This document shows, piece by piece, positions 43,697 through 56,144 of a DNA stretch of 64,000 nt. The translations under genes and the position numbers were made by a program. The notes beneath the pieces are model-generated. The model was not told the DNA's origin and did no database searches. It was given only the letters and a program-made list of their open reading frames with translations. This stretch comes from Opitutia bacterium. Lineage in GTDB: Bacteria > Verrucomicrobiota > Verrucomicrobiia > Opitutales > Opitutaceae. Location: positions 496,001 through 560,000 of the forward strand of contig JACRHT010000017.1 of the NCBI GenBank assembly GCA_016217545.1, read 5' to 3'. How positions within the stretch are numbered: the stretch's first letter is position 1; the number at the start of each line of letters is the position of its first letter.

Positions 43697-44017
43697 TTAC
43701 AGACAGGCGCCGGCGCGGGCGAGAATCTCGTCGCGACGCTGGCGGGCGGTCTCGAGGTCTTTCGTCTCGAGCGACATCCGGACGCGCGACTTGGTGAGCG
43801 GCGTCGGGTGCACGGTGTAGTGCACATACCACGTTCCGTTGTTGTTCCAGAGGTGGTGGTTCGGGTTCGACTCGCGGACGCGCACCGAGGTGCGCGGGAA
43901 CGCGAGCGAGGGATCGACGGCGGCGACCGAGCGACGGATAGCGTCGCGCGGGGCTTCCATCGTGCCGCTGGGAGCGGCACCGGCCTCGGAGCTGTAGCGG
44001 TTGGTTGTAGCTATCAT
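43697..44017 (-). CDS. Small protein resembling an integrase arm-DNA-binding domain
   Basis: 106 residues. A variable first half is followed by HHLWNNNGTWYVHYTVHP, KSRVRMSLETKDLETARQ and RRDEILARAG. This three-strand-plus-helix pattern (W-Y-V-x-(Y/F)-T, R-x-S-L-x-T-K-D-x-x-x-A, then a basic helix) is like the N-terminal arm-binding domain of tyrosine recombinases, but no catalytic domain follows and the gene is complete. It lies 22 bases downstream of leuB. Function unknown; DNA binding is a guess from the fold pattern. Confidence 0.65.
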   Translation of the reverse strand: MIATTNRYSSEAGAAPSGTMEAPRDAIRRSVAAVDPSLAFPRTSVRVRESNPNHHLWNNNGTWYVHYTVHPTPLTKSRVRMSLETKDLETARQRRDEILARAGACL

Positions 44018-44039: not shown

Positions 44040-45119
44040 TCAGTTGCGCGCGTCGGCGAGGCGGGCGCGGATGGCCGCGCCCATTTGCGCGGTCGTCAGC
44101 GGCTTGGCGGCGCCGAGGTCGCCGGTGAGCTGGCCGGCATCGATCGTGGCGGAGACGGCGGCCTCGACGGCCTTGGCCTCGGCTTCGAGGCCGAGCGAGT
44201 GGCGGAGCAGCATCGCGGCGGAAAGGATCGTGCCGGTGGGATTGGCGATGCCCTTGCCGGCAATGTCGGGCGCGGAACCGTGGATGGGCTCGTAGAGGCC
44301 GATGCGGCCTTCGCCGAGCGAGGCGCTGGGGCACATGCCGAGCGATCCGGCGAGCACAGCGGCCTCGTCGGTGAGGATGTCGCCGAACATGTTTTCGGTC
44401 ACGATGACGTCGAACGACGACGCATGCGTGATGAGGCGCATGGCGCAGGAGTCGACGAGCTGGTGCTCGAGTTTCACGTCGGGGAACTCCTTGCCGACCT
44501 CGATTGCCACCTTGCGCCAGAGCCGGGAGGACTCGAGCACGTTGGCCTTGTCGACCGAGGTGACGAGCTTCCGGCGCAGCTGCGCAAGTTGGAAGGCGAG
44601 TTTCACGATGCGTCGAATCTCGGCCTCGGTGTAGACCAGCGTGTCGACGGCGCGCTCGCCGTCGGGCGTCTGCTCGCGTCCCTTAGGAGTTCCGAAATAG
44701 AGTCCACCGGTGAGTTCGCGAACGACGATGAAGTCGACTCCGGCCACACGCTCGGGCTTGAGCGGAGAGAGCTTGGCGAGCGCGGGATGCGGGCTGATGG
44801 GCCGGAGATTGGCGTAAAGTCCGAGCGCCTTGCGGATCGCGAGGAGGCCCTGTTCGGGGCGGACTTTGGCCTGTGGGTCGTCCCACTTAGGTCCACCAAC
44901 GGCGCCGAGCAGAACAGCATCCGCGCGACGACAGCCCTGAAGCGTTTCGTCCGGAAGTGCAGTGCCGTGGCGATCGATCGCGCAGCCGCCCAGAAGGTGC
45001 TCGGTGAATTCGAATTGGTGACCATAGTGACTCGCCACATCGGAAAGCAGAAGTCGTGCCTCGTGGACGACTTCGGGGCCGATGCCGTCCCCGGGGGTGA
45101 GTGCGATGGTTGCCTTCAT
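44040..45119 (-). CDS. leuB: 3-isopropylmalate dehydrogenase
   Basis: 359 residues from the ATG at 45119 ([18 protein letters not shown]). It carries [49 protein letters not shown] and [18 protein letters not shown], the complete set of LeuB motifs. It oxidatively decarboxylates 3-isopropylmalate in leucine synthesis and, with CimA present, probably 3-methylmalate in the citramalate route to isoleucine. It lies 73 bases downstream of cimA. Confidence 0.96.
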
Positions 45120-45192
45120 TGATGCTGAGTATTTTGCACGGGAAATAACGGCCGTGCGCCGCGTGGATTGGGATTTGCTGACCAGCCGTTTT

Positions 45193-46794
45193 TTACACGG
45201 CGGCCGGCGTTTTCGTGGAAACAGGAGTGAGCCCGAACTCGTAACCATCGGCCAATGCGAGCCATGTGGCTTCGAGGATGTTGGGGCCGGCGCCGACCGT
45301 GCTCCAACGGGCGTCGCCGTTGTGCCAGTCGATCAGCACGCGCGTGATGGCGGCGGTGCCGGAGCCGGTGTTCAGGATGCGGACCTTGTAGTCCGCCAAG
45401 TGTATGCCGCGCACGACCGGGAAGTGCGGTTCGAGCGCCTTGCGGAGCGCACGGTCGAAGGCGTGCACCGGACCGTCGCCGCTGGCGGCGGTGTGCACCT
45501 CGTCGGCCTCGACCTGGAGCTTGATCGTCGCCTCGGCGAAACGCTTCTCGTCGTGGCGGCTGACCATCACGCGATAATTGATGAGCTTGAACGGCGCGGC
45601 GTATTCCGGCGCGCGACGACGCACGAGCAACGCGACGCTGGCCTCGGCGGCCTCGAACGAGAACCCCTCGTTCTCCAGCGCCTTGATGTCCTCCACGACC
45701 TTCGCGCCCGTCTGCGCGTCGAGGCCGGACACGCCGAAATGCTCGGCCTTGGAAACAAGATTGGCGCGGCCGGAGAGCTCGCTGACGACGACGCGCATCT
45801 CGTTGCCGACTTTCGTCGGCTCGATGTGCTGGTAGGCATCGGGATGACGCAGCATCGCCGAAACGTGCACGCCGGCCTTGTGGGCGAACGCGCTGTGACC
45901 GACGTAGGCCATGTGCTCGTTGAGGGAGAGATTCGCGACCTCGGCCACGAAATGCGCAACTTCGTAGAGGCGCGCCAAGGCGCCGGCGGGCAGCGCGCGC
46001 ACACCGAGTTTCAACTCCAAGTTCGGCACCACGATGCAGAGGTTGGCGTTGCCGCAGCGTTCGCCGAAGCCGTTGACCGTGCCCTGCACGTGCGCGGCGC
46101 CGGCGCGGACGCCCGCGACGGTGTTCGCCACGGCGCAACCGGTGTCGTCATGCGTGTGCATGCCGATGCGCTGCGCTGGACCGAAGAGCGCACGAACGGC
46201 GCGAACGGTGTCCTCGACCTGCCACGGCAGATGCCCGCCGTTGGTGTCGCAGAGCGTCAGTGTTTCCGCCCCACCCTTCTGCGCGGCGGCGAGCGTTTTG
46301 AGCGCGTAGTCGGGATTCGCGTCGAACGCGTCGAAGAAATGCTCGGCGTCGTAGATCACGCGCTTCCCCTGCGCGCGCAGGTAAGCGACGGTGTCCTCGA
46401 TCATGCGCAGGTTCTCGTCGAGCGTGGTGCGCAGCACTTCCTCGACCTGCATCACCGACGACTTGCCGAAGATGCAGCAAACCTCCGTGCCCGCCGCGAC
46501 GAGCGCCTGCACGCTTGGATCGTCGGCGGGCGCGATGTTGGCGCGACGCGTGGCGCCGAACGCGACGATTTTCGCGTGTTTCCACGTGCGCGTGCGCGCG
46601 GCGTCGAAGAACGCGGCGTCCTTCGGGTTCGAGCCCGGCCAGCCGCCTTCGATGAAGGTGACGCCGAGCTCGTCGAGTTTCTGGGCAATGCGAATCTTGT
46701 CCTCGAGCGAATACGAGATGCCCTCGGTCTGGGCACCGTCGCGCAGCGTGGTGTCGAAAACTTCGACAGAAGCGGGGAGGACGGAAGTGGACAT
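45193..46794 (-). CDS. cimA: Citramalate synthase
   Basis: 533 residues from the ATG at 46794 ([25 protein letters not shown]). An N-terminal TIM-barrel condensing domain carries the R-D-G-x-Q motif, TLCDTNGG and the metal-binding [20 protein letters not shown] and [13 protein letters not shown] are typical of the CimA branch rather than LeuA. The C-terminal LeuA dimer/allosteric domain (about 400-525) would bind isoleucine. It condenses pyruvate with acetyl-CoA to (R)-citramalate, giving 2-oxobutyrate for isoleucine without threonine deaminase. Confidence 0.9.
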
Positions 46795-46804
46795 GATGGA
46801 AAAA

Positions 46805-47542
46805 CTAGAGACCGGACGGGCGTCGACCGCCGAAGACGGCAAGTTCATGAATTTTGAAGAAGCAATCGACCTCTTCGAAGCCCGCGGCGCGCAGCCACGA
46901 ACACTGCGTCTCGACGGGCGCGAGGATGTTGGCCGCCTTGTCAGGCCGGCGGTGAAATTCATCCGCGATTTGCGCGCGAGAGCGACCGGTGCCGCGCGCG
47001 GATTCGACGGCAAAAGCATGATCGATGAAATGCCCCTCGAAGATCGCCGTCGTCAGCGATGCCGCCGGCGCCACGTGTTCGACGTTCACGAACCACCCAC
47101 CCGGCCGCAACAGCGCGAATATCTCCGCGTAGAGACTGCGTTTGCGAGAGTCCGGCTGATGGTGAATCGAATAGCCGGAAACCACGGCATCGAACGGCGC
47201 AAACATCTTCACCGAGGCCAGCCACGTGGACGTGGCGTAGTCGGCGAGCGCAAACTCCAGACCATCCTTCTCCGACGCGAGCATTTCCCGCGCACGTCGG
47301 AGCATGGGCTCCGAGAAATCCAGCAACACGCCACGACTCGCTGGAAAACGCGCCCGCATGGCGGCGCCAAGCACACCATCGCCGCATCCGAGATCGAGAA
47401 ACGTTCCCACGCTTTCGCAGCCCGCGGCGAGCACGTCGAGCATCACTCCGCTCTGCGCCTCACTGAATGGTATCGCTTGTCGCCGCGATAGATAGTCGGC
47501 GACAACCTGATTTTCTTTCCAAACTTCAGCGACGGCGCACAT
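46805..47542 (-). CDS. Class I SAM-dependent methyltransferase
   Basis: 245 residues with FLDLGCGDGVLGAAM (motif I, residues about 47-61), VLLDFSEPMLRRAREM (motif II) and DAVVSGYSIHHQPDSRKRSLYAEIF, followed by LRPGGWFVNVEHV. This is the Methyltransf_11/25 pattern for small-molecule methylation. It starts five bases after leuA and ends 10 bases before cimA, so it is embedded in the branched-chain operon. No link to that pathway is known; the substrate cannot be told. Confidence 0.85.
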   Translation of the reverse strand: MCAVAEVWKENQVVADYLSRRQAIPFSEAQSGVMLDVLAAGCESVGTFLDLGCGDGVLGAAMRARFPASRGVLLDFSEPMLRRAREMLASEKDGLEFALADYATSTWLASVKMFAPFDAVVSGYSIHHQPDSRKRSLYAEIFALLRPGGWFVNVEHVAPAASLTTAIFEGHFIDHAFAVESARGTGRSRAQIADEFHRRPDKAANILAPVETQCSWLRAAGFEEVDCFFKIHELAVFGGRRPSGL

Positions 47543-47547
47543 GGGAC

Positions 47548-49152
<1,605 letters not shown>

Positions 49153-49179
49153 GATGGGATCGGGTTGGAGAAACGAAAA

Positions 49180-49200
49180 ACGCAGCGGTTATCGCTGCGT
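49180..49200 (-). terminator. Terminator just upstream of leuA
   Basis: ACGCAGCG and CGCTGCGT arms with a 5-base loop. On the minus strand TTTTTCGTTTC follows. The stop codon of the 70-codon ORF lies inside the hairpin. It would separate or attenuate leuA from ilvC. Confidence 0.7.
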
Positions 49201-49401
49201 GTGGGGGCGCGGATCGCGCGGAGTGGAGAAGAGCGGGTTGACGAAGACGAAAGAGTCGGGAACGCCCGCGGCCGAGGGACGCGTAGCGGGTTCCGCGGCG
49301 GAGCGCTGGGAGCGCGGGTCCGCGTGGGCATCGTTCGGCGAGAACAAGTCCGTCACGCGGAAGGTGTCTTCACGGCGCGCGGACGAGGAGGCATTGTTCA
49401 T
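49189..49401 (-). CDS. Small ORF between ilvC and leuA
   Basis: 70 codons (MNNASSSARREDTFRVTDLF, later PDSFVFVNPLFSTPRD). Polar, Ser/Pro/Arg-rich, no membrane segment, family not recognised. It is on the operon strand and ends inside the terminator that precedes leuA. It has only two Leu codons and no cluster of branched-chain codons, so it is not an obvious attenuation leader. No clear RBS. Confidence 0.4.
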   Translation of the reverse strand: MNNASSSARREDTFRVTDLFSPNDAHADPRSQRSAAEPATRPSAAGVPDSFVFVNPLFSTPRDPRPHTQR

Positions 49402-49424
49402 GGTGATTTTGTAGGGAGAGAGGT

Positions 49425-49452
49425 GGCGGGCGGCCGCAAGCGACCGCCCGCC
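49425..49452 (-). other. Stem-loop after ilvC
   Basis: A 9-bp GC-rich inverted repeat (GGCGGGCGG with CCGCCCGCC) 23 bases after the ilvC stop, without a T-run. It could stabilise the ilvC mRNA 3' end or act as a processing site. Confidence 0.5.
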
Positions 49453-49475
49453 GGGGTAACACAACACCAAATCGG

Positions 49476-50486
<1,011 letters not shown>

Positions 50487-50497
50487 GGGTATTAAAA

Positions 50498-50525
50498 GTT
50501 GAGAGTTGAGAGATGAGGGTTGAGA
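50498..50525. repeat. Heptanucleotide tandem repeat before ilvC
   Basis: Four consecutive 7-base units on the plus strand: GTTGAGA, GTTGAGA, GATGAGG, GTTGAGA. The same unit recurs in the leuC-leuD spacer. Confidence 0.7.
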
Positions 50526-50537
50526 GAAACGGGAACG

Positions 50538-50705
50538 TTAGCGCGTGAGCTCCGGTGTGAAATGCGAGCCGCCGAAGAAATCGTAGTCCGCCGCGACGGG
50601 TGCAGCGTCGGCGGCGGGCGATTCCTCGAAGAACTCGTTCAGCGACGGCGCGGTGGTGTCCGAACGCTGAAAGCTGAGCGCTGAAAGCGGATTGCTCTGC
50701 TTCAT
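50538..50705 (-). CDS. 55-codon small ORF coupled to ilvN
   Basis: Starts with an ATG that overlaps the ilvN stop codon (ATGA) and encodes 55 residues, beginning MKQSNPLSALSFQRSD and ending YDFFGGSHFTPELTR, acidic in the middle. The overlap is typical of translational coupling. Part of the N-terminus comes from heptad repeats (50664-50691), so the frame may have arisen by repeat insertion. No known family; ilvC follows after 51 bases. Confidence 0.4.
   Translation of the reverse strand: MKQSNPLSALSFQRSDTTAPSLNEFFEESPAADAAPVAADYDFFGGSHFTPELTR
50664..50691. repeat. Heptanucleotide repeats inside the 55-codon ORF
   Basis: Plus-strand units ACGCTGA, AAGCTGA, GCGCTGA, AAGCGGA at 7-base spacing, similar to units in the leuC-leuD spacer. 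Confidence 0.6.
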
Positions 50706-51274
50706 ACGGACATTGAGACGCCGGCGTGGCTGTGGTCGTCGGCCGCGCTCGCGGCGACCTCCGCGCGCACGAGCGGCGGATTGGCGGAGAGCTTGTCGTG
50801 GCCGCGCGCCATCGAGACGGAGCCGGTGCGGACGAGCTCGAGGATGCCGTAGGGACGGAGCACCATCTCGAACTTACCGATTTTCTCCGGCGTGCCGGTG
50901 ACTTCGATGACGAGCGATTCCTCGTCCACGTCGACGACGCGGGCGCGGAACATGTCGACGAACTCAAGCACCTGCGAACGCGTGGCGGCGGTGACCTTGA
51001 CCTTCACGAGGCCGAGTTCGCGGTTGAGCGCCGGCTTGTGCGTGAGGTCGTCGACGCGGAGCACGTTGACGAGCTTGTAGAGGTTGGCCTCGACGATGCG
51101 CGCGCCGGCGTCGGTGGCGTCGACCACGACGGTGAGACGCGAGACGCCGGCCTGCTCGGTGCGGCCAACGGTGAGAGAGTCGATGTTGAAGTTGCGGCGG
51201 CGGAACAGCGAAGCGACGCGGTTCAGCACGCCGGGCACGTCCTCGACGTAGGCGATGAGAGTATGTTTCGGCAT
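50702..51274 (-). CDS. ilvN: Acetolactate synthase regulatory (small) subunit
   Basis: 190 residues, the length of the IlvH/IlvN long form. An N-terminal ACT domain reads HTLIAYVEDVPGVLNRVASLFRRRNFNIDSL, cut here at the G-V-L-N-R-V core, which binds valine for feedback inhibition. A second ACT-like domain follows (about 85-160, GTPEKIGKFEMVLRPYGI). It stimulates and regulates IlvB, encoded 18 bases upstream. Confidence 0.94.
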   Translation of the reverse strand: MPKHTLIAYVEDVPGVLNRVASLFRRRNFNIDSLTVGRTEQAGVSRLTVVVDATDAGARIVEANLYKLVNVLRVDDLTHKPALNRELGLVKVKVTAATRSQVLEFVDMFRARVVDVDEESLVIEVTGTPEKIGKFEMVLRPYGILELVRTGSVSMARGHDKLSANPPLVRAEVAASAADDHSHAGVSMSV

Positions 51275-51292
51275 GGCGGGATTCTCCTCGGG

Positions 51293-53206
51293 TTAGCGGC
51301 GCTTGCCCGCCTTCGTCGCTTTCGCGACCACGGGGCGGCTCGACTTCTTCGAAGTCTCGGCGGATTTTTTCTTCAGTGACGGCGCGGGCTTGCGCTTCGC
51401 GGCCGGGACGGAGGCGGCTTTTGACGGACCGCCGGTGAGCGTGAGTTCGGAGACGGCGGCGCTCTCGCCGTTGGGCATCTGCCACTCCTTGTCCGCGCCG
51501 GACTCGGCGAGGATTTCGCGCTTCGGGCGGCGGATCATCGCATCGAGGTCGGCGCCGGCGGGCACCATGGGGAACACGGCGTCCTCCTGCTCGACCACGA
51601 AGTCGACGACGGTCGTGCGTTTGTCGGCGAGCACGGCTTTGACCGTCGAGTTCACCTCGGCGCGCTTGTCGCAACGCAGGCCGTTGAGGCGGTAGGCTTC
51701 GGCGAGTTTGACGAAGTCAGGACCGGTCATCGGCGTGGCGGCGTAGCGCTTCTCGTAGAAAAACTCCTGCCACTGGCGCACCATGCCGAGGAAGGCGTTG
51801 TTGATGATCGCGACGTTGACCTTGATGCCTTCCTGCTCGGCGGTGGCCAGTTCGCACGAAGTCATCTGGAAGCCGCCGTCGCCGACGACCACCCACACGT
51901 CTTTTTCCGGGCAGGCGAATTTGGCACCGATGGCCGCGGGGAGCGCGAAGCCCATCGTGCCGAGGCCGCCGGAGGTGATGAGCGAACGCGGCTTCTCGTG
52001 GCGATAATACTGCGCTTCCCACATCTGGTGCTGGCCGACGTCGGTAACGACGATGGTGTCGCGATCCTTCGTGGCGCGCCAGAGGTCGTTGATCACGTGC
52101 GCGGCGTAGAGGTGGCCGTTGTCGGGGAGCGCCTGGATGTCGCGCACGGCGGAGTCGCCCTTCATCTCAGCGATCTTGGCCCACCATTCGCCGCGGTCCG
52201 AAGTGCGGACCTTCGGGAGCAATTCCTCGAGCACTTCGCGGAGATCGCCGATGAGCGGCACGTCGACGTGGACGTTCTTGTTCACTTCGGACGGGTCGAT
52301 CTCGACGTGAATCTTCTTCGCGTGCGGCGCGTAGGTCTTGAGGTTGCCGGTGACGCGATCGTCGAAGCGCATGCCGAGCGCGATGAGCAGGTCGGCTTGT
52401 TGGATGGCCTGATTGACCCACGCCTCGCCGTGCATGCCCATCATGCCGAGGTTGAACGGCGAGGAAGCCGGCACGACACCGAGGCCGAGCAACGTGACCG
52501 CGATCGGGATGCGCGCGGTGTCGGCGAGTTCGAGCACCTGCGCGGTGGCGCCGGAGAGCTTGATGCCTTGGCCGGCGAGGATCACCGGGCGCTTGGCGGA
52601 ATTGATCAACTCGAGCGCGCGCTCGTATTCGGTCGGCAACGCGCGGAGGTTCGGGCGATAGCCCGGAAGCTTCGGCGCGGCCGCTTCCCAGTCGAACTCG
52701 GCGGTGAGTTGCTGCGCATCCTTCGTGATGTCGACAAGCACCGGGCCCGGGCGACCGCTCTTGGCGATGTAGAATGCCTCGCGGATGACGCGCGCGATGT
52801 CGGCGGTTTTCGTCACGAGGTAGTTGTGCTTCGTGACCGGGAGCGTGACGCCGGTGACGTCGGTCTCCTGGAACGCGTCCGTGCCGAGCGCACGCGAGCC
52901 GACCTGGCCGGTGATGCACACGATCGGGGACGAGTCCATCATCGCGGTGGCGATGCCGGTGACCATGTTGGTGGCGCCGGGGCCCGACGTCGCGATGGCG
53001 ACACCGACCTTGCCGCTGGCGCGCGCATAGCCGTCGGCCATGTGCGTGGCGCCCTGTTCGTGGCGCGTGAGGACGTGATGAATCTGCGGATACTTCGTCA
53101 TCGCGTCGTAGGTCGGGAGGATCGCGCCGCCCGGGTAACCGAACACGACATCCACGCCTTCGCGGATGAGGCATTCCCAGATGATTTCTGCGCCAGTGAG
53201 TTTCAT
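51293..53206 (-). CDS. ilvB: Acetolactate synthase catalytic (large) subunit
   Basis: 637 residues from the ATG at 53206 (MKLTGAEIIWECLIREGVD); upstream frame rejected. TPP-enzyme motifs: VFGYPGGAILP, the catalytic Glu in RHEQGATHMADGYAR, and VGDGGFQMTSCELATA with INNAFLGMVRQWQEFFY. It condenses pyruvate with pyruvate or 2-oxobutyrate. After about residue 575 there is an unusual Lys/Ala/Ser-rich extension of roughly 60 residues (AAKRKPAPSLKKKSAETSKK region) that the usual enzyme lacks. Confidence 0.95.
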   Translation of the reverse strand: MKLTGAEIIWECLIREGVDVVFGYPGGAILPTYDAMTKYPQIHHVLTRHEQGATHMADGYARASGKVGVAIATSGPGATNMVTGIATAMMDSSPIVCITGQVGSRALGTDAFQETDVTGVTLPVTKHNYLVTKTADIARVIREAFYIAKSGRPGPVLVDITKDAQQLTAEFDWEAAAPKLPGYRPNLRALPTEYERALELINSAKRPVILAGQGIKLSGATAQVLELADTARIPIAVTLLGLGVVPASSPFNLGMMGMHGEAWVNQAIQQADLLIALGMRFDDRVTGNLKTYAPHAKKIHVEIDPSEVNKNVHVDVPLIGDLREVLEELLPKVRTSDRGEWWAKIAEMKGDSAVRDIQALPDNGHLYAAHVINDLWRATKDRDTIVVTDVGQHQMWEAQYYRHEKPRSLITSGGLGTMGFALPAAIGAKFACPEKDVWVVVGDGGFQMTSCELATAEQEGIKVNVAIINNAFLGMVRQWQEFFYEKRYAATPMTGPDFVKLAEAYRLNGLRCDKRAEVNSTVKAVLADKRTTVVDFVVEQEDAVFPMVPAGADLDAMIRRPKREILAESGADKEWQMPNGESAAVSELTLTGGPSKAASVPAAKRKPAPSLKKKSAETSKKSSRPVVAKATKAGKRR

Positions 53207-53238: not shown

Positions 53239-54912
53239 TCAGGAAGTCACCGCGCCCTGCGCGGCGGACGAGACGGTGTTGGCGTATTTCGCCATCACGC
53301 CGCGCTGGTAACGCGGCACGGGCGGCGTCCAGCCCTGGCGGCGGTAGGTGAAGTCGACCGCCGCGACCTCGACGTGCAATTTGCGCGCGGCGACGTCGAT
53401 TTCGATGATGTCGCCTTCGCGCACGAACGCGATCGCGCCACCCACGAAGGCTTCGGGCGCAACGTGACCGATGGACATGCCGCGCGTCGCGCCGGAGAAG
53501 CGTCCGTCGGTGAGCAACGCCACCGAGTCGGCGAGGCCGGCGCCCGCGAGCGCGGCGGTGACGCCGAGCATCTCGCGCATGCCGGGGCCGCCCTTGGGCC
53601 CTTCGTAACGAATGACGACGACGTCGCCCGCCTTGATCTTCTGCGCGGTGGCCGCGGCCATGGCGTCCTCCTCGCAGTTGAACACACGCGCCGGGCCGCG
53701 ATGCTTTTGCACGCTGCTGCCGGCGACTTTGAGCACGCAGCCTTCCTCGGCGAGATTGCCGCGGAGGATGACGAGGCCGCCGTGCGGCTTGAAGGGCTTC
53801 TCGACCGAGCGGATGACCTGCTGGCCGGGCGTCTCGGGCGCGTTCTTCACTTCCTCGGCAAGCGAACGACCGGTGACCGTCGGGCAACCGCCGGTGAGCA
53901 ATCCGCCCTCGAGCAGACGGCGGAGCAGCAGCGTGATGCCGCCGGCGGCGTGCATCTCGGGCGCGGTGTAGAGACCGCCGGGCTTGAGCGTCGCGATGGT
54001 CGGCGTCTGGTCGCTGAGACGATCAAAATCCTCGAGCGAGAGCGGCACGCCGACCTCGTGAGCGAGAGCGATGAGGTGCAACACGGCGTTGGTCGAACCG
54101 CCCGAAGCGGCGACCGCGCGGATGGCGTTCTCGAACGCCGGCCGAATAAAGATCTGCGCCGGGCGCAGGTCGCGACGCACGAGTTCGACGGCGAGTTCAC
54201 CGCAGCGGCGCGCCGCGTCTTTCTTCGTCGGATCGACCGCGGGAATGCCGTTCAAGCCCGCGGGCGAGATGCCGACGGCCTCCATGACGGTGGCCATCGT
54301 GTTCGCGGTGAACTGGCCGCCGCACGAACCCGCGGTCGGGCACGCGGCGTTCTCGACGCACTTGAATTCCTTTTCGTCGATCTTGCCGGCGTTGAACGCG
54401 CCGACGGCTTCGAACACGTCCTGCACGGTCAGCGCCTTGCCGTGGTGATCGCCGTGGTTGATCGACCCGCCGTAGAGGGCGAGGCCCGGCACGTTGACGC
54501 GAGCGAGCGCCATCATGACGCCGGGGTTGGTCTTGTCGCAGCCGGAGAGGCAGACGAGGCCGTCGAGGTAATTGCCGCGCACGACGAGCTCGATGGAATC
54601 GGCGATGACTTCGCGCGAGATGAGCGAGGTCTTCATGCCCTCGGTGCCCATCGTGATGCCGTCGGAGATGGAGACGGTGTTGAATTCCATCGGCGTGCCG
54701 CCGGCCGCGCGGATGCCGGCTTTCACGGCCTCGGCGAGTTCGCGGAGGTGATAGTTGCATGGACCAATTTCGGTCCACGTGTTCGCGATGCCGATGAGCG
54801 GCTTCTTGAGGTCCTCGTCGGTGAATCCGACCGCCTTGAGCATGGCGCGCGCGGGCGCCCGGCTGACGCCCTCGGTGATCGCCCGGGAGTTCTTGCGCAG
54901 GTCTTCGCTCAT
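53239..54912 (-). CDS. ilvD: Dihydroxy-acid dehydratase
   Basis: 557 residues. Fe-S ligands C52 (GPCNYH), C125 ([11 protein letters not shown]) and C197 ([14 protein letters not shown]) are present, plus [10 protein letters not shown] near the C-terminus. It dehydrates the dihydroxy acids to 2-oxoisovalerate and 2-oxo-3-methylvalerate. It is the first enzyme gene of the cluster; its ATG overlaps the stop of a 19-codon ORF, and an attenuator-like leader precedes it. Confidence 0.96.
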
Positions 54913-54968
54913 GCGCGTGCAGCCCCCGTGGCGGGGCGGTTGAGGTGGTGGTTGAGGACAGTTTTCAT
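54909..54968 (-). CDS. 19-codon ORF coupled to ilvD
   Basis: ATG directly after the leader terminator T-run. It encodes [19 protein letters not shown], and its TGA stop overlaps the ilvD ATG (ATGA). It probably delivers ribosomes to ilvD rather than a functional protein. Confidence 0.4.
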
Positions 54969-54979
54969 TCGGAAAAAAG

Positions 54980-55006
54980 AAAGGCCACCCGGTTTGGGCG
55001 GCCTTT
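54980..55006 (-). terminator. Attenuator terminator upstream of ilvD
   Basis: AAAGGCC-G-CCC and GGG-T-GGCCTTT, an 11-bp stem (one G-T pair) with an AAACC loop, followed by CTTTTTT, 68 bases before the ilvD start. Confidence 0.85.
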
Positions 55007-55031
55007 TCGAAACTTGGAGAGTTGAGTCTCT

Positions 55032-55133
55032 TTAGTTGTGCGAAAGCCGCCCGTTGGAGGGGGTAAGCAGAATGACGACCGCAATAATAAGAGCGGTGAA
55101 GAGGTGAAGGGAGAGCTTGAGGCTCGACGTCAT
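55032..55133 (-). CDS. Probable ilv operon leader peptide
   Basis: 33 codons on the minus strand, beginning [12 protein letters not shown]. 13 residues are Leu, Ile or Val, nine of them in the block LIIAVVILL (15-23) with a single Ala, including paired ATT and GTC codons. Length, position before a terminator and composition match the ilv leader peptides of enterobacteria in design, though the sequence is not otherwise similar. It could also be read as a tiny membrane peptide; the matching antiterminator makes the regulatory reading stronger. Confidence 0.72.
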
Positions 55134-55154
55134 TCGAGAAAAGAGACGGGCGAA

Positions 55155-55183
55155 TTTCTGCGGGTCAGAGGAGAATCGGTCAA
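55155..55183 (-). promoter_or_regulatory. Weak candidate promoter of the ilv leader
   Basis: TTGACC, 17 bases, then CAGAAA on the minus strand. Transcription would start about 15 bases before the leader ATG. The -10 is poor, so this is tentative. Confidence 0.25.
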
Positions 55184-55208
55184 CGGCGGTCTTTCTTTAT
55201 GACAGCAC

Positions 55209-56144
55209 TTAGACCGCGCGACGGATCACGAGCAGCGAAACCACGCTAACTGCCAGCCACAGCGTGATTCCCATCGCAAATGGCCGCCAGCCGACGGAGC
55301 GGAGATTTTCCCGGGAGAGGCTGGCCCCAATGAGAAACAGCGTGACAGCGAGCCCCGCCTTGGCCGCGCTGACCCAGAATTGATACACTGGGGCCCCGGC
55401 GGGAAACGCCGATGCGAGCGCCGAAGCCGCGATGAACAGCAGCACAAACCACGGAATCACGGCCTTCGCACCGCGCTGCTTCTCCTTCCACGCCGCGACC
55501 GCCACCAGAGGCAGAATCCACAGCGCGCGCGCCAATTTCACCGGCACCGCGATGGCGAGCGAAGCCGCGGAGTATTTCGCCGCCGCACCCACGACCGAAC
55601 TCGTGTCGTGGATGGCGATGGCGGCCCAATAGCCGAACTGCTCCGGCGTCAGCCCAACCAGGTGACCGATCGCCGGAAAAAGGAAAAGCGCCACGGCGTT
55701 CAGCACGAACACGCAACCCAGCGCCACCGACATCACTCCCGCCTCCGCGCCGAGCACCGGCCCCATCGCCGCGATGGCACTGCCGCCGCAGATCGCCGTG
55801 CCCGTTGAAATGAGCTGCCCCGTCGTCCGCTCGACTGCGAACCACCGCGCGAGCAACACTCCGAATCCGATCGTCGCAGCCAGGGTGAGCGCGGTCGTGA
55901 CGACGCCAGTCGAACCGGCCTTCATCACCGCGCTGAATTGGATGCCGAAACCCAGTCCGACGACCGAAGCCTGCAACAGGTATTTCTGCACCTTCGCCGC
56001 GCGCTTCGCGTCGGTGTTGCCAATGAACACCGCAAACACCAGCCCCGCGAACAACGCCACGGGCGGCGTGACCCACGGCAGGCCGCACGCGACCGCGACG
56101 AGCCACAGCGCGGGTGTTTTCCAGGTTGGCGGCGCGGCGGACAT
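55209..56144 (-). CDS. YeiH-family membrane protein (putative sulfate exporter family)
   Basis: 311 residues from the ATG at 56144 (MSAAPPTWKTPALWL). About nine or ten membrane helices. GLGFGIQFSAVMKAG, STGTAICGGSAIAAMGPV and AIHDTSSVVGAAAKYS are the conserved motifs of the YeiH/UPF0324 family, some members of which are annotated as sulfate or sulfonate exporters. The function here is not established. It ends 76 bases before the ilv leader peptide on the same strand, so read-through into the attenuator is possible. Confidence 0.85.
   Translation of the reverse strand: MSAAPPTWKTPALWLVAVACGLPWVTPPVALFAGLVFAVFIGNTDAKRAAKVQKYLLQASVVGLGFGIQFSAVMKAGSTGVVTTALTLAATIGFGVLLARWFAVERTTGQLISTGTAICGGSAIAAMGPVLGAEAGVMSVALGCVFVLNAVALFLFPAIGHLVGLTPEQFGYWAAIAIHDTSSVVGAAAKYSAASLAIAVPVKLARALWILPLVAVAAWKEKQRGAKAVIPWFVLLFIAASALASAFPAGAPVYQFWVSAAKAGLAVTLFLIGASLSRENLRSVGWRPFAMGITLWLAVSVVSLLVIRRAV

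Follow-up and report, generated by a model that had tools for sequence, protein, structure and literature searches.

Ribosome-mediated attenuation of branched-chain amino acid (BCAA) operons is familiar from the enterobacterial ilvGMEDA, ilvBN and leu attenuators, and Vitreschak reportedly surveyed proteobacterial attenuators in 2004. For the ilvBNC operon of Corynebacterium glutamicum, the available part of PMC11857589 describes a 15-residue BCAA leader, MTIIRLVVVTARRLP, that has no ribosome-binding site and whose RNA starts one nucleotide from the leader ATG, a terminator before the first ilv gene, a three-hairpin model, and a valine response that is lost on replacement of the valine codons. 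Short ORFs with runs of Ile, Val and Leu codons, together with terminators, were found by comparison before actinobacterial ilv operons, and in the excerpt of that study (PMC1262725) the candidate terminators overlap with the codon runs, and the Streptomyces coelicolor ilvB leader did not respond when its regulatory codons were mutated, a result that we count against the attenuator reading developed below. Among the titles and abstract openings of the matches listed in searches of the open-access literature, no report of an amino acid attenuator in Verrucomicrobiota was found; the attenuation-related text in the accessible portion of PMC11683593 concerns ErmB, and the corresponding portion of PMC8632094 describes an ilvD motif in Veillonella.

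The window analysed here is a 64-kb stretch, G000:C17:496001-560000, of a 5.09-Mb genome of an Opitutia bacterium (Opitutaceae), in which all of the elements described are read on the minus strand. The initial annotation of this DNA had proposed a complete ribosome-mediated attenuator upstream of ilvD, and re-reading of the coordinates bears out its 33-codon leader with LIIAVVILL at residues 15-23, its terminator (an 11-pair stem with CTTTTTT, the end of the stem lying 68 bases from the first base of ilvD at 54912), and its antiterminator segment GGGCGGCTTT at 55043-55052, which comes exactly 12 nt after the block's final Leu codon (CTT at 55065-55067). The gene names given to the downstream cluster are likewise right by NCBIfam, but the list was incomplete, lacking a methyltransferase gene and a DUF6538-like ORF. 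The window was compared with other loci carrying the same close type of ilvD, giving 31 in all with the window included: 11 from the window's genus (g1) and one from a neighbouring genus (g28), which together form a first group of 12, and 19 from a second genus (g38). The ilvD proteins of the set are 76-100% identical, and loci L002-L007, whose leaders are the same as some of the 31, were counted once. The features of the window are as follows.

55197..55204, minus strand: GTCATA-type element TGTCATAA upstream of the -35-like box (GTCATA counted across the 31 loci)
55179..55183, minus strand: TTGAC, probable -35 of the leader promoter (present in 31/31 loci)
55032..55133, minus strand: leader peptide ORF of 33 codons (equivalent ORF in 31/31 loci)
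55065..55091, minus strand: control codons CTT ATT ATT GCG GTC GTC ATT CTG CTT, encoding the LIIAVVILL block (from the sequence and codon counts)
55046..55052, minus strand: arm 2, GGGCGGC, antiterminator 5' arm, encoding Gly-Arg of the leader and extendable with TTT to 55043 (GGG in 31/31, CGG in 30/31)
54996..55006, minus strand: arm 3, AAAGGCCGCCC, common to terminator and antiterminator (pattern scan, pairing, covariation)
54980..54990, minus strand: arm 4, GGGTGGCCTTT, terminator 3' arm (98.8% of 330 terminator alignment cells paired over 30 rows, with both-side changes at two pairs)
54973..54979, minus strand: terminator U-tract CTTTTTT (sequence and pattern scan)
54909..54968, minus strand: second short ORF, 19 codons, in the terminator-ilvD interval, ending in an ATGA overlap with the ilvD start (position kept across loci)
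53239..54912, minus strand: ilvD, first structural gene of the cluster (NCBIfam NF002068 and TIGR00110 above cut-off)
44040..53206, minus strand: ilvB, ilvN, ilvC, leuA, methyltransferase, cimA and leuB (TIGR00118, TIGR00119, TIGR00465, TIGR00973, TIGR00977 and TIGR00169 each above cut-off; methyltransferase by Pfam)
46805-47542, minus strand: the methyltransferase gene within the cluster (Pfam)
43697-44017, minus strand: DUF6538-like small ORF of 106 amino acids directly downstream of leuB (Pfam, 25.0 bits against a cut-off of 27)

We infer that the ilvD-to-leuB cluster is one transcript, and we put at roughly 90% the probability that the ilvD leader is a classical ribosome-mediated transcription attenuator. 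The predicted leader ORF, arm 2, arm 3 with its two possible partners, arm 4 and the U-tract before ilvD are all conserved. When charged Leu-, Ile- or Val-tRNA is short, a ribosome would stall in the control codons with its leading edge ending just before arm 2 (12 nt), so that arm 2 would pair with arm 3 once arm 3 had been made, the terminator could not form, and RNA polymerase would continue through ilvD and also, provided that the cluster is one transcript, through ilvBNC-leuA-cimA-leuB. With an ample supply of the amino acids, the ribosome would cover arm 2 as it moved to the stop codon, arm 3 would pair with arm 4, and transcription would end.

The layout shares several traits with the enterobacterial ilvGMEDA, ilvBN and leu attenuators: the leader ORF is rich in BCAA codons, terminator and antiterminator exclude each other, arm 2 is near the end of the leader, and BCAA genes lie downstream. 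It differs from them in having no Rfam match at the gathering score, no Shine-Dalgarno-like sequence and no 1:2 pairing shared by all of the loci, and in having ilvD as the first gene. The unusual synonymous codons of the ilvD leader recall the leu leader discussed in the accessible text of PMC1183508. Like C. glutamicum ilvBNC, as far as the available part of PMC11857589 goes, the locus combines a BCAA leader that has no ribosome-binding site with a terminator before the first ilv gene, but the leader here has 33 codons and its RNA start is placed from the TTGAC spacing only. The resemblance to the actinobacterial ilvB leaders in the excerpt of PMC1262725 lies in short ORFs and terminators recognised by comparison; here, in contrast, the control codons, arm 2 and the terminator are distinct elements in the classical order.

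Each of the 31 close-type loci keeps a terminator preceded by a BCAA-rich leader ORF whose end contains a GGGCG arm. The arm reads GGGCGGC in 30 of them, the exception (L089) having GGGCGAG with a shorter pairing. Close-type ilvD was found in 11 of 13 g1 genomes and 19 of 21 g38 genomes. Both g1 genomes that lack ilvD are incomplete (73-74%); of the two g38 exceptions, one (G208) has the leader and the ilvD start at a contig end and the other is 69% complete; and g28 contributes one locus, a second g28 genome (76% complete) being without a match. The closest named ilvD records are metagenome-assembled genomes filed under Opitutia, 'Candidatus Didemnitutus', Lacunisphaera and Verrucomicrobia, which we take to be Opitutaceae. 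At E 1e-150, ilvB of the window's type is present in 21 of 200 family genomes, in the genera g1, g28, g38 and g10, and in g10 (G009) a leader, MNFVVVSLILGLVLVIIGTHDQLDGKEVRVTR, precedes ilvB.

For a second type of ilvD, about 50% identical, 40 upstream regions were scanned, each from a different genome, covering 33 genera of the family. In 39 of the 40 loci no BCAA leader with terminator was found; two of the 39 regions extend for only about 150 and 270 nt, and one (L161) has an ORF with four BCAA in eight residues near a terminator-like site. The remaining locus, L156, offers a doubtful case, with 113 nt between the end of an ORF that has five BCAA residues in eight and a terminator-like site near ilvD. 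The window ilvD is up to 63% identical to proteins of Bryobacteraceae (Acidobacteria) and about 45-51% identical to the other matched ilvD proteins of the family. Protein similarity of this kind suggests that the window-type ilvD came from transfer or from an old duplication. Among 74 ilvD loci of Acidobacteria, Chloroflexi and other groups (59-63% identity; 73 had at least 300 nt upstream), none has a BCAA leader with terminator, and thus there is no sign that the leader arrived with the gene from such a source.

The pattern scan reads the window terminator as AAAGGCCGCCC-AAACC-GGGTGGCCTTT-CTTTTTT (54973-55006), with 11 pairs, 7 of them G-C. Because 0.9 terminator-like sites are expected per shuffle of the region, the hairpin in the window alone is within chance; its conservation is beyond chance. 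An intrinsic terminator lies between the leader ORF and the first structural gene in 31/31 loci, and one of the two covarying pairs is mostly G-C in the first group and A-U in the second genus. It might be argued that the hairpin is simply the ordinary terminator of the upstream yeiH-like gene, that ilvD has its own promoter further downstream, and that the leader ORF is incidental, since the window hairpin does sit between the two genes and about one terminator-like site is expected by chance in the region scan. However, only 5 of the 31 loci have a YeiH homologue upstream, as judged from flanks of at most about 1.5 kb, and leader and terminator are present in all 31, so the terminator goes with ilvD; TTGAC is found just upstream of the leader in every locus, and codon bias and invariance of arm 2 would be left unexplained. 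We hold this explanation to be very improbable. A simple promoter scan of 54850-55400 found none downstream of the terminator, but the scan also missed the TTGAC-type site upstream.

Folding of 54960-55200 gives z = -3.8 against shuffles, and in the minimum-energy fold GGGCGGC is paired with sequence around the -35-like box, a region that is probably untranscribed. Folded separately, the arm 2-to-arm 3 antiterminator of the window has -23.7 kcal/mol and the terminator hairpin -20.4 kcal/mol. Across loci, pairing between each leader tail and the 5' arm of its own terminator averages -20.7 kcal/mol; with shuffled codon order the mean is -11.9 (sd 3.0). The antiterminator alignment (30 rows) has 98.3% of 240 cells paired, with no compensatory change at any pair, which we count against the attenuator; its arms are nearly invariant and its score is no better than that of shuffles. 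As the arms hardly vary, covariation cannot test this pairing. In the initial annotation's test of conservation in relatives, the leader ORF and the antiterminator arms are kept in all 31 loci, by invariance and without the compensatory changes that had been hoped for. The invariance of arm 2 is itself informative, because GGG (31/31) and CGG (30/31) are fixed at synonymous sites although these codons make up 10% of Gly and 12.7% of Arg codons, respectively, in ilvD of the same genomes. In arm 4, G-C to G-U exchanges occur with arms 2 and 3 fixed, as expected if arm 3 has two partners. One row, L119, was omitted from alignments A2 (18/19) and A3 (30/31), and a small hairpin after the stop codon was left unscored, alignment A1 misplacing it (GAGA..TCTC in most loci; AAATC..GATTT in L086, L100 and L112).

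In the first group the last Leu codon is 12 nt from arm 2 in 12/12 loci and the end of arm 2 is 11 nt from the stop codon in 10/12, the window included, and 5 and 14 nt in the other two. In this group the antiterminator is exclusive with the terminator and arm 2 can be covered by a ribosome finishing the leader, which upholds, at the 11 nt measured in the window, the earlier proposal that a ribosome at the stop codon would mask arm 2. The second genus has 20 nt from the end of arm 2 to the stop in 19/19 loci and 6-21 nt from the last BCAA codon to arm 2. A ribosome at the stop probably has arm 2 of these loci behind it, outside its footprint, and masking would then depend on timing or on an arm of greater length. 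A simple stalling model, in which all RNA up to A-site +13 (the assumed footprint) is hidden, predicts that arm 2 pairs with arm 3 in 31/31 loci when the ribosome is stalled and RNA has been made to arm 3, and that arm 3 pairs with arm 4 in 31/31 when the ribosome is at the stop. For the completed leader at equilibrium the model prefers the terminator in 30/31 even with a stalled ribosome; we count this against the attenuator, and it means that the switch must be decided during transcription. No 1:2 hairpin common to all 31 loci was found; when no ribosome is placed on the RNA, many loci, though not all, have arm 2 paired with upstream sequence.

The leader ORF is short and BCAA-rich in 31/31 loci, the enzymes of the operon being confirmed, and its choice of synonymous codons sets it apart. 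Across 30 distinct leader ORFs, Ile is ATT in 74/87 and Leu is CTT in 69/178, as compared with 19/167 Ile and 19/304 Leu codons in eight genes of the window, and 140/958 and 104/1434 in ilvD of the 31 loci; for ATT (74/87 versus 140/958) Fisher's test gives p ~1e-42, with sequences that are not independent. In the window leader alone, ATT accounts for 3/3 Ile (p ~1.5e-3) and CTT for 4/8 Leu (p ~9e-4; both Fisher). The accessible text of PMC1183508 makes the sensitivity of attenuation depend on the synonymous codon used and calls 'rare codons' an oversimplification; the codon choice of the leaders is far from that of the genes, and we claim nothing further about rarity.

As a peptide the leader is only moderately constrained, with dN/dS of 0.66 and 0.53 in the two groups. 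For frames 0, +1 and +2, pN/pS is 0.69, 0.75 and 1.1 in the first group (8 of 12 loci) and 0.49, 0.83 and 1.66 in the second genus (13 of 19 loci), so that the first group does hardly better in frame than in +1, a result that we also count against the attenuator. Could the ORF instead encode a real one-helix small membrane protein, co-regulated with ilvD, whose hydrophobic run serves the membrane and not the ribosome? A 13-residue hydrophobic stretch could form a membrane helix, and the ORF is conserved with dN/dS below 1; yet outside the hydrophobic run and GRL the peptides of the two genera have little in common, GGG CGG codons and not the residues alone keep the C-terminal Gly-Arg, and the sister leaders described below are Phe/Tyr-, Ile- or His-rich according to pathway, HHHHH being no membrane helix. 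A membrane protein is thus, in our judgement, a most unlikely account of the ORF.

A terminator with an alternative pairing would, judging from the pairing itself, suit any sensor, and a riboswitch, a T-box or an RNA-binding protein might act on the same terminator in place of the ribosome. However, no Rfam family was matched at its gathering score in the window region or in the 16 loci searched whole, the best weak match on the minus strand being Phe_leader (25 bits, E 0.05), and the conserved part is the leader ORF itself. Such a sensor we consider improbable, if marginally less so than a yeiH terminator or a membrane protein, and ribosome-mediated attenuation remains the preferred reading.

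Further support comes from other operons. The same predicted architecture, with codons matched to the pathway, is found in this family before DAHP synthase-pheA (Phe/Tyr), ilvA (Ile) and hisG (His), which makes the ilvD leader one of at least four operon types with putative leaders of this kind; the window's genome carries BCAA, Phe/Tyr and His versions. At E 0.01, a covariance model, R1, built on 30 of the ilvD leaders, has matches in 176/252 family genomes and 190/387 phylum genomes. Many of those listed span just the terminator (model positions 131-169) and were not counted as leaders; among 40 further matches that were read, L216, L231, L235, L236, L247 and L249 look like gene ends with a terminator, and L239 and, by its visible start, L233 are the end of a gene that we take to encode a membrane pyrophosphatase. 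Among the matches listed, full-length ones elsewhere in the family include Phe/Tyr-rich leaders such as MLQSFAYFFFAFAGFFAPRTMGG before DAHP synthase, and Ile-rich leaders such as MSIRAIIIAAMIMIRLESGRRRVTA before ilvA (L229, L246). In the window's genome (L214) the gene after DAHP synthase is a chorismate mutase/prephenate dehydratase. Attenuator-like leaders with terminators (MTQVRANVSLNSTPWFATTKKAISRTLPGAL and MMSRLTWLPINDTTSKHVVVILFAPIAGRLSHT types) also lie upstream of ORFs resembling the DUF6538-like one in L215, L217 and L220, and attenuator-like leaders of this sort occur in L219, L223, L243 and L245.

A phylum search for DAHP synthase gave 59/240 genomes at E 1e-60, and the upstream regions were read at 50 of the 59. 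Within the family, 9/16 have a leader of at least five Phe or Tyr in ten residues and a terminator. No such leader was found at eight loci from three other families of the order; at one of these loci, L271, an ORF reaches four in ten and a terminator-like site is present. Among six more distant loci, three have a Phe/Tyr-rich ORF, one of these with a terminator, and among 20 further distant loci, six have at least six Phe or Tyr in ten, as against 0.1% in base-shuffled copies, four of them (L395, L396, L405 and L408) with a hairpin and T-run after the ORF.

Before ilvA, an Ile-rich leader is followed in 11/32 loci by a terminator of other sequence (GCCCTGAGC in seven, GCCCCGGGC in four), and these leaders carry TCAGGGC or GCCCGGGC, the latter one base short of a full match. 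Three loci (L309, L311 and L313) have a similar terminator and no leader above threshold, four g1 loci that were read (L324, L326, L330 and L331) have neither leader nor terminator, and a match to ilvA is present in the window's genome.

Leaders with HHHHH (MVLNHHHHHSS, MVLNHHHHHVS, MSLHHHHHRR) and a terminator precede hisG in 4/30 family loci, those where HisG is 74-100% identical to that of the window's genome, the other 26 being at 28-33%. In the phylum sample, 2/27 further loci (L422 in g38, and L425) have at least four His in eight residues, against 0.4% when shuffled. Before hisG in L425 (G299, from another family of the class) there is a His-rich leader, MRYNAPAYMIWQVTIHHLHHHHVR, with a terminator. 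The hisG leader of the window's own genome (L366, on G000:C12) scores 45 bits (E 3.4e-5) with Rfam RF00514 His_leader, below the gathering score of 49, and this likeness concerns the sister hisG attenuator and not the ilvD leader. In the predicted fold of the same leader, MVLNHHHHHSS, the His codons pair with GTGGTGATG, which lies downstream, and this pairing encloses a GCCTTCCC/GGGAAGGC hairpin. For trpE, 30 family upstream regions (one of only 138 nt) gave five ORFs with two Trp in eight, and none of the five has a terminator-like site after it.

A cross-operon pairing test was restricted to loci with a codon-rich ORF and a terminator (28/28 preselected for DAHP synthase, 11/32 for ilvA), and gives no frequency. 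DAHP-synthase leaders pair with their own terminators at -17.7 and with ilvD terminators at -18.2 kcal/mol; ilvD leaders give -20.7 with their own, -20.5 with DAHP-synthase and -12.6 kcal/mol with ilvA terminators; and ilvA leaders give -18.1 with their own, and -15.1 and -14.4 kcal/mol when swapped. Because both use GGGCGGC, the test cannot separate ilvD from DAHP-synthase leaders, and only the comparison with ilvA is informative. The best evidence for the mechanism is that codon content tracks the pathway in four operon types and that the arm of the ilvA leaders changes together with its terminator. Together with the leader ORF, GGGCG arm and terminator present in 31/31 loci, the sister leaders sustain the attenuator proposed in the initial annotation.

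The probable -35, TTGAC, precedes the leader ATG by 39-51 nt in 31/31 ilv loci; among the 17 Phe leaders measured, 16 have it 36-38 nt upstream of the leader start (in the exception, L240, the script took another ORF, at 28 nt; L237, L241, L242, L248 and L253 are outside the 17). A -10-like hexamer (A2, T6; spacing 16-18) is present in 20/31 loci over a background of 15%, by a test chosen after the sequences had been viewed, and is split between 19/19 of the second genus (g38) and 1/12 of the first group. By the same hexamer test and spacing no convincing -10 was found in the window itself, and no SD-like 4-mer was found before the leader ATG in any of the 31 loci; both results we count against the attenuator. 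Given the TTGAC spacing and the usual geometry of promoters relative to the -35, the RNA would start at or a few nucleotides before the leader ATG, and the ilv leader start codon may lie at or near the RNA 5' end. A near-leaderless ilv leader would be a known variation, as the available parts of two reports have the C. glutamicum ilvL RNA starting next to its ATG and the Sinorhizobium meliloti trpL RNA starting at it (PMC11857589, PMC7298713). Upstream of TTGAC, GTCATA occurs in 21/31 loci at 19-29 nt (20-23 in most), with a further copy at 34 in one locus, and TGTCATAA occurs once in the 64-kb window, counting both strands; the element is a candidate regulator site or upstream promoter element. 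Similar strings, TATGACA or AGTCATAA, precede several of the Phe leaders.

The second short ORF, between terminator and ilvD, begins with ATG in 28/31 loci and stops within -25..+10 of the ilvD ATG in 29/31. Its pN/pS is 0.72 in frame as against 1.08 and 0.89 in the other frames, a weak signal (13/19 second-genus loci, 20 codons), and in g38 it often reads MTQT...SPCRKC.GSV. Its position would make it a possible translational coupler for ilvD, a gene that has no Shine-Dalgarno sequence.

What is new here is the phylum and the number of operons; the mechanism itself is already known. We give about even chances to the broader view that classical attenuation is a general mode of amino acid control in Verrucomicrobiota and not a one-operon import, with distinct leaders for BCAA, Ile, Phe/Tyr and His, arms of at least two unrelated sequences (GGGCGGC and TCAGGGC), leader RNAs that are often leaderless or nearly so, and a second short ORF that would pass ribosomes from the terminator to the ilvD start. 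The leaders form a testable set of ribosome-sensing switches in a phylum where searches of the open literature found none described, predict operon by operon which amino acid starvation would trigger a response, and supply natural variation in control codons, arm positions and start context. If the broader view is true, it would suggest that leader-peptide attenuation is older, or more mobile among bacteria, than the well-studied groups imply.
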